A stretch of DNA of 64,000 bases, taken from Macrocystis pyrifera. Lineage: Eukaryota; Sar; Phaeophyceae; Laminariales; Laminariaceae. Of the stretch, positions 971-63,600 are shown one piece after another; the first letter of the stretch is position 1, and each line of letters opens with the position of its first letter. A program made the position numbers and the translations under genes. The stretch is taken from NCBI GenBank assembly GCA_031763025.1, contig JASSKH010000015.1:12690774-12754773 (forward strand), in the 5' to 3' direction. Below the pieces are notes generated by a model that searched no databases, was not told the origin of the DNA, and was given only the letters and a program-made list of their open reading frames with translations.

Positions 971-3900
971 CTGCAGGTGCAAGTGTGCGGGTGGGGGTCG
1001 AAGTACTCATGTCATGCATGTCCGAAGTCGTACGGCCATAGACCCTCGCATCCCTACAATGGAGCGGGGGGGGGGGGGGGGGGGGGGGGGGGGAACCAGG
1101 CGTACTCATTTGTTGCTTGCTTTAGTCACTTGACCATTGACCACGCACCCCTTCCGAGACGGAGCACCGTTCCTACTCCTAATAGAGACACCTCCAACAA
1201 TTGGGCGCTCATTACGTTGTTTCCGTGTACTACATAGAAACTTTTTGCGAATCTTATCCCCTCCCTGTTTGGCCGCCAGTGGCAGTGTACTTGATATCAT
1301 GCATGGCCGTAGTCGTATCACTATACATCCTCGCATCCCTACAATGCCGGGACGGAGCAAGTCGGGTTTTCACCGACCAGACAGACATTGCTTCTTGCAC
1401 CAAGCGCGAAGCGCAGTGAGGTGTGTGTCGGCGAGTCGCATGAAGGAGGGGCTGCATGCATCTTACTAAGCATCGCTTCTGAAGCGGATTTTCTAGCACA
1501 TGGATGTCAGCTTCAAAATCAGGAGGGGTGGGGGAAGCAAAACGCGCGCGAGGGCTTGTGAATTGTACTGGTACAGGGGTAGGAGCTTTTTTTTTTTTTT
1601 TCTGAGACTCCTAACTTGAGGAGCTGTACATCTCTACTATAACGGGAGATTATACTAAATAGGACCATACGGTACGGTACACCCAAAAACCAATATATAT
1701 TTCCTCTTTTTGCTAACAATATTTGGTCCTATTTACCATAGACCCCAGTGATACCAAAAACTGATTTTCAGAAGAAAAAAAAGGACGCTCAACCTCGGCC
1801 TATCGTAAAAGTCGGCCAAAACATATTGCGAACAGCAAAGAGATTGACGACAAGGCATGTCTTAACCCCTTTCATAGTTCAGTACCCGTTTTGGGACGAA
1901 CCGCTCAAATTGTCATTACTTCGTCCCCAAAATGCGGCTGCAGTCCTTAGAGGGATACAACCCGATGAGCAATCTTCCATGGCGTAGCTCTACATCAGCC
2001 ACTAGTGTAAAAAAACAAAAACGACGCAATAGCTGGGTAGTTTTTCAGTCCCAAAGCCCCATCAGTCAGAAATAGGTCGGCCAAAAAAAGGTATAAGGTA
2101 CATAAGTAGTACCCCTTTCGTAGTACGCCTCCATAATAAGCCGTCATGATAAGATAATAAGCCGCCACCCCTCCTTGTCTCTCACCTGAATGCAGCTCAG
2201 CAGCTGGCGAGCCGCGCAGCAGACCATCAACCCCATCCAAACCACCTTCCACGCCACGGCAAACTCTTCTCCTCCCCAACCCCCCCCCCGCAAAAACCCC
2301 TTCCGCCTCCTTTCCAGTCGAAGAAGCGAGCCCACCATGTTCCTCTCCTTCCTCCAACATTTCTCCTTCGTCGCCGATTCCGAAACCGCCAGAATTGACA
2401 GTCTCGTGTCCTGAATAACGTCCCTCTATGATGTAGGAAACCCCATCCACGAAGAGGGAGCCGGCCTTGAGCGCGGTCGATCGCAGCCCGCGCGGCAGGG
2501 AGGCGGAGGCGGCCATGTAGGACCACAGAAGGAACGCCTCACTACCCAAGGAAACCTGCGAGTAGGCGAGCGAGCGAAACAAACAAACGAACGGTGATTT
2601 GTTTGTTCGATGTTCGCTGTAACCGCCAAATTTGTTGTTCACTGAGGGAGAGAAACGCCTCATTTTCCCAAGGAAACCTAGGCGAGCGGAAGGTACGAGA
2701 AAAGTAGGCGTTATCTAGGCATGCCAGGATACGGGTAGCGCCTACAGTGATTTTTCTGAGGTTCTCTTGCTTGAGAAGTACACTTCACCTAAAACCTGAT
2801 TTCTCGTTAAAAGATATCCACTGGCCCAGGGTCAAACGGATACTCTTGTAAAAACACTAAATGCGATTTCCACGACATTGGGCATTTACTCAGCGCCCTC
2901 AAGAAGCCCCGTCGGTCATAAAGGTTACCCCCATCGAAGCGCGCCTCTAAGCCGCTGCCCTTCCAAGGCAAACCGTGCAAGGGGTACGTAGTCACTCCCA
3001 CCATCAACCTCAACCCCCCCCACAAAAACTCCAACACCAGCGCCTAAACCAGCAACAACACCAAACTACCACGCCTCTAAGCCGCTGCCCTTCCAAGGCA
3101 GTTACGGTCGAGAGAAGGCGCGCAATGCACGGAGTACGTGGACACTCCCAGCACCAACATCAACCCCACGGACGCGAACACCAAGAATGCCAATCCCAGC
3201 GCCTACACCAACACTAAACTACCATAACAGACTACATTACCATCAACGCCACCACTACTGCCACCAAAACCACCAACAATAATGCTTCCCTACACTAGCA
3301 ACACCGCCGCCGACAGCACAGCCAGTACCGTCACCAACACCAGCACCGCCAGCGCAATCACCAAAACAACACCAGCAGCAGCAACAACAACAACAACGAT
3401 AACAACACCGCCACAAGAAACAACACCAAGACGAACACCAACAAGATCAACACCACCAGCAACACCAACACAACAAATACCACCGCCACCAACATCAATC
3501 CAACCACAGCAGCCACCATCACCATCAGCGCTAACAATACCAACACCATCATCACTACCGCAACACCCGACAGCAACACCAACGCCAAGGTGCTGTCAGG
3601 GCAGAACATCTCTATGCAAAACTTCAACACACCTTGAACAGATCAGATAGATCAGATCATAGATTAGATCATAGATGAGATCATAGATGAGATCATAGAT
3701 CAGATTCCCACTTGAATCATCTAGTTATTTCAGGGCAGATAGATAGTTGGATAGGTACATTCCTGATATGTATGATCTGTACGATCTAGCTCATGCTGCC
3801 GGGTGGGAGCCGCATAATCAGCGTGATCTAGCACACGTCGCCTGTGTTGGATCTGTACTATACAGCTCCTGTATAACCTACAATAACGGAAGCTTAGGAT

Positions 3901-60600: not shown

Positions 60601-63600
60601 AACGCCAATCGTGTGTAGCACGCCTAATTGCAAATGCTATCGCCACCTCCCTGCCTTGCACTTGGACGCATCGGCATCCCCCCTACCCCAGCCTGTTCTT
60701 GTTGGGCTGCGTCGTGCGGGCCGATGCGGTATTCTTCACTTACTTTTTCGAAATCCGGAAGTGGTAAATGCCCAATATGGCAGGCAAGATAACACCCCTC
60801 CCCCCCCCCTCCCCCCCCCTGGGGATTATTTCGCGAGACGTTTACACACATCAGACAGATCAGGTCCCCACTTCACGATCTGGACATTTCAGGACAGGTG
60901 TGATCTGTATGATCTGTATGACCTACAGTAGCTCATGTTAACCCTTCCACACATCGGACCGACTGATCATCTACAGATCATTCTCACTGCATGATCTCAA
61001 TCTTTCGGGGCAGGTAGATTCCTGATCTGTATCGTCTCGCTCATGTTGCTTTGGAACTGACTTCCACCCTCCACCCCCCTCCCCCCCCGATCCCCCTCCC
61101 TGTTGGGTTTCCCCTCGGCCCGTTCGTTTCCGTCGGTATAATAGGCGTCGTCGATCCTCCGCACCAGCCGTACGCTCTCTGACGCAGGACTTTGAGGGTG
61201 GTGACGAAGGGTACGTCCCATCCGACCTAACTTCCCAGCAGTACACGGCCAAGGGGAAGAACGGCACCTTCGACAAGGGCCTGCTCCCGTCGAAAGAGGA
61301 GTGCTACCAGCACGCCGACGAGGACGCTACCCACCTCTCGGTGGTGGCTGCTGCTGCTTCTGCTGCTGCTGCTGCTGCTGCTGCTGCTGCAGATGCAGAT
61401 GCAGATGCGGATGCAGATGCAGATGTTGCTGCTGGTGATGGTTCGGAGGGGGCTGTTAAAGGTGGTGGTGGTGGCAGGTATATTTTCCCCGACGATGTAA
61501 GCAGCAGCGGCCACAAAGGGCGCCCGCCGAAGCCGTCCCAGTCCCAAGCGCGGCGGGCGAAATTTTCAGTTCTGGCTATCGACAGCACTCAAGAGGTGCG
61601 AGGGTCAACGCCATCCCTGGCGTCTAGCGGCGAAGACAGCCTGTCAGGTGGAAGCGGGGAGTTGAGCAGGGGCAAAGGCGGGAGCGGAGCGGGGAGCGAG
61701 GGCGGGACGGGGGAGAAGTGGTCGCGCGGTGGGAGCACGTACAGCGACGCGGCTTCGACCGCGGTGCCTCTCGACTTGGCAGGGCTTAGCTCGCAAAACT
61801 CGGCGGTTCTGACGGCGCCACTGCATACCACGGGAGCCGCGGCGGCGACCGCGGGAAAATCGTCGTCGGGAAAAGCACTCGCCTGCCTCAGATCGTCGTC
61901 GGTCTGCTCCCAGCTCTCGGTGATATCCAGCGAGACGCCCCAGACATGCCTATCAGCCACTAAGAAACCTAATGTCCGAGGACCATCCGGGGCATTAGCC
62001 TCTCTTGGGCTCGGCCGTGGACACTCCATAGAATCCATGGATTATGAGGGTGATGGCACCGAGAGTGCGGGTACTTTTGAGGGAAGCGCGGCGGGATGGT
62101 CTGAGGCGGGCTCGAGGTTCAGAGGGGGTCTTGCTGGTTCCGACGACTACGAGGTGAGGTTGACGAATCGCAAAACATAATTGTAGGGTGCGTAGCTCTC
62201 CATGTCTTGGCACCCCCCCCCCCCCCCCCCCCCCCCCGCGCGCACAACACACCCCCTTGCACCCAACTTACCCTCCCCCCCCCCCCTACCCCCCTCCCAT
62301 GTGCACAATTGCATCAAGCACGCCGCCTCTTCTGTCCCAAGGTTATCACGACGAAAGGTGTCTCTGTTAGGAGTAGGAACGGTGCTACGTCTCGAAAAGG
62401 ATGAGTGGTCAACGGTCTAATGACTGAAGGCAAGGCAACAAATAAGTATGCCCCCCCCCCCCCCCCTGGTGCAGGCAATGTCTGCCTGGTCGGTGAAAAC
62501 CCGACGTGCTCCGTCCCGGCATTGTAGGGATGCGAGGGTCTATGGTTGTAGGACTACGGCCATGCATGATACTGAGTACACCCCCCCCTCCCCCCCCCCC
62601 CCCCTCGCGTACACGATTACATTAAACACGTCTCTGTAATCCCAGGGTTACAACGGCGAAAGGCAGCGCGCGAGCATCGCCGAGGAGCGCATCAGGGCGG
62701 TTCAGCTGTCGGACAGTGCCCTGCAAGCGGTCACGGTGGCGCCCCACGACATGGTGCTCCCCTCGCCCACCCCATTCTCCCCAAGAACGGACTGGGAGCT
62801 GGCGCAAGACCTGGCCCCAACCCCTAACGACGCGAGCAAGACGGGGCACGGGGAGCTGGGTTGCCAGCCCCGCCAGAAAGGGGGGGGAGCCCTCCGGCTA
62901 CTCTCAAGGGGGTGGCGGCCGTACGACCCCACGCGGTAGCCTCGGCGATGGTAGGGGCGATTTCGGCGACGGGTCTAAACACTCCAGGCCTCCAGTGAGC
63001 CGGAGGGGGGCGTCCCACCACGGAGGGCTTCGCGCGGGCGCGGGCGGGAGGGGGGAGGGGCCTGGGGATCCTTCTCCCGGCGGTGCCTACGATAGTGATG
63101 CGGCTAGTCGCGCCCCTTCTTTCAAGACGGGGGCGACCTCTTCATCTTCGTCGAGGGCTGGGCGGAGCCGCAAGGACGGTGGGACCCCTAAGCGGAGCCG
63201 CAGCCGGGGAACGGCCCCCTCTCGGCGAGGAAGCGGAGGAGGGGGAATGGGAAGAAGAGCAGCGAAAGAGGGGCTCGGGGGGGGCGACGCCGACAGCGAC
63301 TGCGAGAGCCGCGCCCCAGGGTTCACAGTCACGCCTCCCCGGCAGCGTGGCTCCGCCTTCGCTTCAGACTCTCTTGAAAACCCTTTTGATGGCGTCGAGG
63401 TGGGGGGGGGGATGGTCAGACGTGAGCGGGCGAGGTGGCGGCAGCGGTCGCGGAGCCCCCGCGGTACAGCTCCCTTCCATCTTCGACAGCGACGGTGAGA
63501 GCCGATTCTACGGAACGCTGTCCGCAGGGATGTCCTCTGTCGAGCCGGAGGGGGACGACGGGAACAGCAATGGCTTCTACCCGAGGCGGAGCCCCGGCGG

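Follow-up and report, generated by a model that had tools for sequence, protein, structure and literature searches.

A poly(C)-tailed, retroposon-like repeat of giant kelp that probably homes to C-runs and tends to face exons

Insertion of L1- and Alu-type elements is guided by their poly(A) tail and a T-rich target. Non-LTR retrotransposons with specific targets include CRE, R2, some HERO elements and the (TG)n-specific Togen (PMC4640811). Among the brown algae, the portion of the Ectocarpus study consulted describes RTEX-N1_Ec32, a non-autonomous, LINE-dependent retroposon of ~600 bp present in >6000 copies, and reports that intronic transposable elements of that alga bear signs of selection (PMC12477816). 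Introners, according to the part of the source cited, form whole introns (PMC9860276). The repeats of the present report, family E, were analysed in a 64,000-nt stretch of giant kelp DNA (the window) and at further loci of the same genome. In our reading, family E is a non-coding repeat of high copy number that resembles a retroposon, carries poly(C) as its 3' tail and most likely homes to C-runs. The window holds two modelled genes:

791..14298, minus strand, gene 1, modelled with ten exons, aligning to brown-algal orthologs
33543..63943, plus strand, gene 2, 18 exons with a C-type lectin domain, modelled; exons 1-8 have relatives

All ten exons of gene 1 align to brown-algal orthologs, and the start of the fourth (acceptor 10620; exon 5 of the original prediction) is left unfixed by that alignment. 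For gene 2, which keeps the original exon numbering, the acceptor of exon 2 is placed to within a few codons and the relatives stop short of the exon 8 donor. A homolog search gave nothing for exons 9-18, and only open frame, phase and GT-AG speak for them. The introns of both models are GT-AG in 26 of 26 cases. Among the ten splice sites at which family E had originally been placed, three junctions are ortholog-matched (the last acceptor of gene 1, the exon 3 acceptor and the intron 2 donor of gene 2), two are matched approximately and five are not.

The window yielded 24 accepted copies (15 of subfamily E1, 9 of E2) in 15 clusters, and every copy falls within an intron of these genes. Weak HMM hits outside arrays were rejected, and one weak fragment (35180-35198) was kept. 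The copies are:

1002..1061, minus strand, last 60 nt of E1, 31 nt from the faced acceptor of the last gene 1 exon (nhmmer)
1101..1284, minus strand, E2, in tandem with its neighbours (nhmmer)
1285..1517, minus strand, E1, 5'-truncated (nhmmer)
10731..10860, minus strand, E1, 111 nt from the faced acceptor 10620 (nhmmer)
12723..12876, minus strand, E1, an exception, its faced acceptor 300 nt away
13346..13534, minus strand, E2 with a C20 tail in a three-copy same-strand array, an exception, its faced acceptor 923 nt away
13618..13863, minus strand, E1, middle of the 13.3-14.05 kb array (nhmmer)
13891..14053, minus strand, E2, outermost copy in the array and the wrong way round, with donor 14114 at 61 nt from its non-tail end
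34199..34236, plus strand, E1 fragment with a C42 tail (HMM 34202-34232; ends read by eye)
34365..34772, plus strand, E1, covering the whole 441-nt model and extending further upstream in its 5' part (nhmmer)
34807..34910, plus strand, E2 with a C42 tail, the tract ending 25 nt ahead of the acceptor modelled for gene 2 exon 2
35180..35198, minus strand, E1 fragment with a weak score (E=0.8), 94 nt from the faced donor 35086
35409..35454, minus strand, E1 fragment in the array of the preceding copy (nhmmer)
35468..35583, minus strand, E1, apparently inserted into the preceding copy (nhmmer), with a 16-nt repeat that starts with a C-run on each side (by eye)
36158..36220, plus strand, E2 between C31 and C20 runs, 62 nt ahead of the acceptor of gene 2 exon 3
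39036..39105, minus strand, E1, an exception, 161 nt from donor 38875, with a repeat of the exon end and donor beyond its opposite end
41615..41726, minus strand, E2 flanked on both sides by C-runs (plus-strand G15 and G27), with donor 41574 at a distance of 40 nt
43257..43755, plus strand, E1, succeeded by the longest C tract, which runs to 44074, ahead of gene 2 exon 12 (acceptor 44109)
44562..44733, plus strand, E2, an exception, its faced acceptor 1014 nt away
47143..47411, plus strand, E1 in a C-rich tract, 49 nt ahead of the acceptor of gene 2 exon 15
47725..47831, minus strand, E1, 56 nt from donor 47669
49354..49422, minus strand, E2, an exception, 552 nt from donor 48802
62356..62450, plus strand, E2, its 5' junction adjoining a degenerate copy of the start of gene 2 exon 18
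62466..62581, plus strand, E1 in the tail of the preceding E2, 64 nt ahead of the exon 18 acceptor

The direction of the element can be read from its ends. Copies share the end GAGTAC(A/G) followed by poly(C), and the opposite end is cut at varying lengths. Of the 15 E1 copies in the window, 14 terminate at positions 439-440 of the 441-nt model, and all nine E2 copies at positions 190-193 of a 194-nt model (nhmmer); at 20 loci on contig C125 the C end is reached by 78 of 83 copies, 70 of which have a run of C5 or longer no more than 25 nt from their 3' end, and the 5' starts are scattered over model positions 2 to 413. These loci had been chosen through an exact E1 core; with copies holding that core removed, 50 of 55 still reached the C end. 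E1 (~0.5 kb) and E2 (at least 190 nt) are both non-coding and have only ~75 nt in common, at the tail end. A common 3' end, variable 5' truncation and a simple-sequence 3' tail are traits of non-LTR retroposons. Since the common end is the C end, what had been described as a 5' poly(G) head is a 3' poly(C) tail read on the other strand, and the direction first assigned to the element has to be reversed. A pattern scan of the giant kelp assembly gave 28,237 matches to the E1 core with up to two mismatches.

Propagation of such a repeat would presumably pass through an RNA intermediate and might depend on a helper LINE; family E at most borrows reverse transcriptase and endonuclease machinery, since copies of 0.2-0.5 kb have too little length for such a coding frame and none was noticed in them. 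No LINE was recognised by eye among the ORFs of at least 220 residues in a 190-kb sample. As regards an RNA polymerase III-type head of the SINE kind, the window had no match in Rfam at gathering scores, nor did 43180-43780 at E<=1, and locus L017 contained no tRNA. The fold of the shared 3' 75 nt is weak, with a double change in 1 of 11 pairs and an unfavourable covariation term. Two scans of viral contigs with family E patterns gave 0 matches. A 22-mer occurs in four prokaryote contigs, which by eye look like bacterial contigs fused with repeat DNA of kelp; they were left out of every count.

Of the 24 window copies, 13 have a C-run in the 20 nt upstream of their 5' end (1.1 expected), including 8 of the 15 that are not nested (0.7 expected). 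At the C125 loci the corresponding count is 39 of 82 against a background of 3.8%, and with near-full-length E1 set aside a C-run precedes the truncated end in 38 of 55 copies against the same background. Neighbours no more than 250 nt apart at these loci point in the same direction in 29 cases and in opposite directions in one. Family E thus displays a trait of target-specific retrotransposons, the preference for one target sequence. The original prediction had raised insertion preference as one reading, and the C-runs at 5' junctions, together with the exon-facing bias described below, lend it support.

The most likely mechanism, in our view, is target-primed reverse transcription with pairing of the C tail to a nicked G-run strand. 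New copies would then enter C-runs, among them the tails of older copies, and would take the orientation of the run. Copies that broke splice signals would presumably have been lost. Kelp introns offer such targets with a polarity of their own. In kinesin flanks free of family E (49 upstream, 44 downstream), runs of C5 or longer number 6.6 per kb within 120 nt before acceptors against 2.2 and 1.8 further out, and runs of G5 or longer 3.2 per kb within 120 nt after donors against 1.3 and 1.85. Copies would accordingly land on the strand of the gene before acceptors (C-runs) and on the opposite strand after donors (G-runs); homing to C-runs, combined with this polarity, would make the tail face the exon on both sides. 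Family E tails themselves could have seeded some of the C-runs.

Target-site duplications were sought in 80 copies elsewhere, of which the 55 truncated ones were counted, full-length junctions being approximate. None of the 55 had a duplication that scored at least 20 and ended no more than 6 nt from the junction (2 of 444 among mispaired controls); duplications inside a C-run would be invisible. In the window, two sites (39.1 and 62 kb) have long duplications that end at the 5' junction and span an exon-intron junction, that at 62 kb not exceeding the best mispaired flank, and there is one short nested case. The partial duplication of exon 18 suggests that the stretch between tail and acceptor was the original target. 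A repeat of exon sequence at 47.8 kb, 141 nt from the junction, was rejected as a target-site duplication and left uncounted.

The proximity of these copies to splice sites is borne out in the window. The C tract ends 25, 42, 31 and 41 nt before the acceptors of gene 2 exons 2, 3, 15 and 18, and before exon 12 the distance is 71 nt by script or ~35 nt if the last C-run (44044-44074) is counted. At the last exon of gene 1 just a C5 run lies past the element end in the 31-nt gap, and at acceptor 10620 a 16-20 nt E-like remnant (by eye) lies closer than the HMM copy. On the donor side the element ends are 94, 40 and 56 nt away in introns 2, 8 and 15, the first value depending on the 19-nt weak fragment. 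Nine of the 15 clusters (eight without that fragment) lie within 120 nt of the splice site faced by the tail. Uniform placement over introns predicts 1.25 (0 of 200,000 draws reached nine) and placement within each cluster's own intron 2.15 (P=2e-5); for eight clusters the values are P=1e-5 and 2e-4. The geometry first noticed, copies at splice sites facing the exon, therefore stands beyond chance. That every copy does so is true of the near sites listed at the time, and exceptions outside that listing occur at 12.8, 13.3-14.05, 39.1, 44.6 and 49.4 kb. Copies of the control repeat M1 in the window (15) have edges 34-5440 nt from splice sites, four of them below 100 nt.

An independent sample gave the same orientation. 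Of 131 kinesin hits, 80 were taken by E-value rank before any search for family E, down to the point where the remaining low ranks were left aside, and their exon borders were computed; hits of higher rank were skipped if they lay in open frames of more than ~450 residues or in the second copy of the duplicated C208 gene, as were a few neighbouring others in genes already chosen. Before counting, the family E copies at L058 were dropped, being those upstream of L045 seen from the previous exon, with their other end 119 nt from that donor, and so was an E=0.05 hit overlapping the L085 exon. With the copies of one array counted as one cluster, 22 clusters have their tail towards the exon and 4 have it pointing away around the first 60 exons (two-sided P=0.0005), so that random orientation is contradicted in this sample; within 120 nt the figures are 13 and 0. 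The further 20 exons added one cluster, facing. Control repeats near kinesin exons were too few for comparison (M1 at 7 sites, 6:1; M2 at 2; S1 and one further repeat at 0).

A wider proposal, that splice-proximal chromatin, R-loops or nascent RNA steer insertion to exon borders besides C-runs, and that poly(C) tails helped to build the C-run and G-run splicing landscape of kelp introns genome-wide, seems to us unlikely. Rather unlikely, too, is that insertion is less selective and that copies disturbing splicing were lost, those facing exons near splice sites surviving by sparing or helping splice signals. No element end does come closer to a splice site than 31 nt in the window or, with computed borders, 27 nt in the kinesin set, and the selection on intronic elements of Ectocarpus, as far as the source consulted goes, offers a parallel (PMC12477816). 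However, the C-runs at 5' junctions and the same-direction arrays indicate targeting at insertion, even in loci chosen irrespective of exons.

We find it distinctly unlikely that the machinery directly senses something close to splice sites, be it R-loops, nascent RNA, chromatin or a splicing factor, C-runs being only part of the signal. Such sensing could account for the duplications that span exon-intron junctions at two window sites, and for the position of the clusters, 9 of 15 within 120 nt of splice sites compared with 8 of 47 E-free runs of at least 6 (P=0.002), 6 of 29 of at least 7 (P=0.017), 4 of 20 of at least 8 (P=0.03) and 3 of 13 of at least 10 (P=0.07), a small comparison within a single window. 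C-runs alone may thus not explain everything, but clusters 161-1014 nt from splice sites exist, some in C-rich surroundings.

Very improbable is an introner-like or splice-parasite strategy, as first suggested, by which family E would create introns or supply splice signals. With poly(C) ahead of acceptors and poly(G) behind donors, the tracts do occupy positions in which they could act as splicing signals, but no intron equals or is spanned by a copy, element boundaries do not coincide with splice sites (the nearest window end is 31 nt away) and 13 of 26 introns are E-free; that the element supplies the pyrimidine tract is doubtful at 25-111 nt from tail or tract end to the acceptor at the near sites. 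To chance or selective listing we give almost no credence: the first listing held near sites only, 6 of the 15 clusters lie more than 120 nt from the site they face and the second kinesin set yielded a single cluster, but permutation gave P of 2e-4 or less and the first kinesin set was one-sided at close range.

Homing of a C tail to C-runs would offer a simple, testable reason why so abundant a mobile element can lie within tens of nucleotides of splice sites, with the base polarity of introns setting the side and strand on which splice signals can stay intact, and it raises the question whether long poly(C) and poly(G) tracts beside exons change splicing in giant kelp. In the open-licence full-text literature searched, mostly at listing level, we found no printed description of family E or of any poly(C)-tailed retroposon that targets C-runs. 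Like L1 and Alu, family E would have a homopolymer tail complementary to the nicked target strand, but with C in place of A, from which a C-run target and an exon-facing polarity follow. By description, it resembles RTEX-N1_Ec32 in being short, non-coding, high in copy number, shared in its 3' end and resident in a brown alga, and differs in its poly(C) tail and C-run targets (PMC12477816). As with introners, in the source as cited, a repeat family is associated with introns and splice sites, but family E sits inside introns (PMC9860276). It shares with CRE, R2, some HERO elements and Togen insertion into a particular repetitive sequence, and stands apart in that its target is a C homopolymer, often near exons, and that it is known from non-coding copies alone (PMC4640811).

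Profile searches of the window (placed at C195:12690774-12754773 in an assembly of 537,376,219 bases and 223 contigs; the published Macrocystis pyrifera assembly is described as having 35 scaffolds and 188 contigs, 537 MB in all, with an N50 of 13,669,674 (PMC10498591)) yielded 24 accepted copies of the high-copy repeat family E, which form 15 clusters, arrays being counted once. Read with the poly(C) at the 3' end, the copies of subtype E1 in the window stop at model position 439-440 of 441 in 14 of 15 cases and at 429 in the remaining one, an HMM match of 31 nt; their starts are scattered from position 2 to 421. 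All nine copies of subtype E2 in the window end at position 190-193 of 194, with starts scattered from 2 to 129, and the likeness between the subtypes is confined to the final ~75 nt. Near-full-length E1 copies elsewhere were seen by eye to carry ~100 nt more on the 5' side, and the full E1 is about 0.5 kb. Since the copies share a C end and vary in their starts, the poly(G) 5' end that the original prediction placed against the exon is a 3' C tail read on the complementary strand. The exon-facing pattern itself is confirmed and extends outside the window, but the element has to be read in the reverse direction.

Two modelled genes carry the copies:
14298 to 791, minus strand: gene 1, ten exons
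33543-63943, plus strand: gene 2, 18 exons
The product of gene 1 has a lamin-tail-like domain, for which the orthologs score just below the Pfam cut-off; four brown-algal orthologs (64-91% identity across aligned parts) align to all ten exons, with the start of the fourth exon left unfixed by the alignment. This domain (gene at 791-14298) is joined to a membrane part that by eye resembles phosphatidylinositol synthase, a part for which Pfam gave no report in two orthologs. Gene 2 contains the C-type lectin domain PF00059 (E 1.6e-7). Relatives back its exons 1-8; they place the acceptor of exon 2 approximately and do not cover the donor of exon 8. Its last ten exons were without homolog support in the homolog search. 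Frame changes noted by eye within a C-rich, proline-coding stretch of exon 8 (41148-41573; C17 near 41296) and near G8 at 62880 in exon 18 are likely errors of homopolymer sequencing or assembly. The exon 15 stretch 47606-47640 recurs at 47974-48007 in the next intron, past an E copy.

Family E occupies 13 of the 26 introns in the window, with ten clusters on the strand of the gene and five on the opposite strand. The distances between the last copy of a cluster, taken at its 3' end, and the splice site that it faces are 31, 40, 49, 56, 62, 64, 67, 94, 111, 161, 300, 354, 552, 923 and 1014 nt, of which the 354 nt shrinks to about 35 if a long C tract is included in the tail. Within 120 nt lie nine of the 15 clusters, against an expectation of 1.25 when all introns are used, 1.66 of 14 when the 12.3-kb intron is left out, and 2.15 when each is placed within its own intron (P=2e-5); without a weak fragment at 35180 the count is 8/15 (P=1e-5 and 2e-4).

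The same orientation was found around kinesin-domain exons elsewhere in the genome, of which 60 of 131 hits, with 450 nt on each side, were picked before any search for E. The 37 E hits in this sample, after one doubtful hit and one repeat view of the same copies were dropped and arrays counted once, gave 22 clusters facing the exon and 4 facing away (P=0.0005). For clusters no more than 120 nt from the exon border as computed, the counts were 13 and 0 (P=0.0002). The clusters facing away were at these loci:
L041
L069
L085, upstream
L087
Twenty further exons, taken with flanks of 170 nt and bringing the coverage to 80 of the 131 hits, held one cluster, facing and 92 nt from the hit edge, a yield below that predicted from the first set.

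An insertion preference, as the original prediction had entertained, is supported for C-runs, which are present also at the truncated ends of E copies: in 13 of 24 copies in the window (1.1 expected), in 39 of 82 copies at 20 loci elsewhere chosen by matches to the E1 core (background 3.8%), and in 38 of 55 at these loci when near-full-length E1 is left out. E-free flanks of the kinesin exons are rich in C5+ runs before acceptors (49 upstream flanks; 6.6 per kb within 120 nt, 2.2 and 1.8 beyond) and in G5+ runs after donors (44 downstream flanks; 3.2 per kb within 120 nt, 1.3 and 1.85 beyond). The introns of the window show the same once E is masked (C5+, 9.1 vs 2.4 per kb; G5+, 3.5 vs 1.8 per kb, the donor-side figure containing two unmasked E G-tracts). 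E would home to C-runs, with the base polarity of the intron setting strand and side, and thus tails would face the exon on both sides. Fresh copies would likewise enter the C tails of older ones, for which reason neighbours pointing in the same direction, as in 29 of 30 pairs at the 20 loci, are to be expected. Preferential insertion into C-runs is the cause with the best support. It may be an incomplete one, because E in the window is nearer to splice sites than are other C-runs of 8 or more (9/15 clusters vs 4/20, P=0.03). The strand bias of exon flanks in E-free kelp introns (window and L033-L092), C-runs preceding acceptors and G-runs following donors, may bear on splicing independently of E.

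At 62.3-62.6 kb, the sequence before an E2/E1 pair repeats the acceptor region and opening nucleotides of exon 18, which follow the pair, and stops exactly at the 5' junction of the pair; at 39.1 kb an exon end and donor are repeated likewise around an E copy. The 39.1-kb match scored 55, above all mispaired and shuffled controls (24 and 23), and in a second test the score was reached by 3% of random windows, a set that may have contained the site. The 62-kb match exceeded its shuffles (26 vs 21) and fell below the best mispaired flank (28). No similar duplications were found in 55 truncated E copies elsewhere. If the two in the window are true target-site duplications, insertion near an exon would re-create the very splice site being split.

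Other repeats were noticed. M1, a second abundant repeat (TTACGGGGGnCCATAGT..AGGACC), occurs at 31517-31646 and in about 20 places, and of the 20 copies found, 15 are completely contained in introns of genes 1 and 2. A repeat with tRNA-like sequence (GGTGGCTTGGTAGG...GGGTTCGAGTC), seen by eye at 57870-58190, 39350-39660 and 6218-6528, is perhaps a tRNA-derived SINE. Two stretches of a GACCCGACCC-rich tandem unit of ~40 nt lie at 16341-17167. Elsewhere, seven E1 and E2 copies form an array at locus L008, most of them adjoining C-runs and six in one direction; L022 (6592-9500) has long open frames resembling, by eye, a Copia-type retrotransposon; and kelp repeat sequence in four bacterial MAG contigs of a public collection (L001-L004) apparently marks these as chimeric or contaminated.

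Among published elements the closest in kind is RTEX-N1_Ec32, from Ectocarpus (PMC12477816), compared with E by its description. Target-specific non-LTR elements are known, (TG)n-specific ones among them (PMC4640811), and introners, unlike E, are described as whole introns (PMC9860276).
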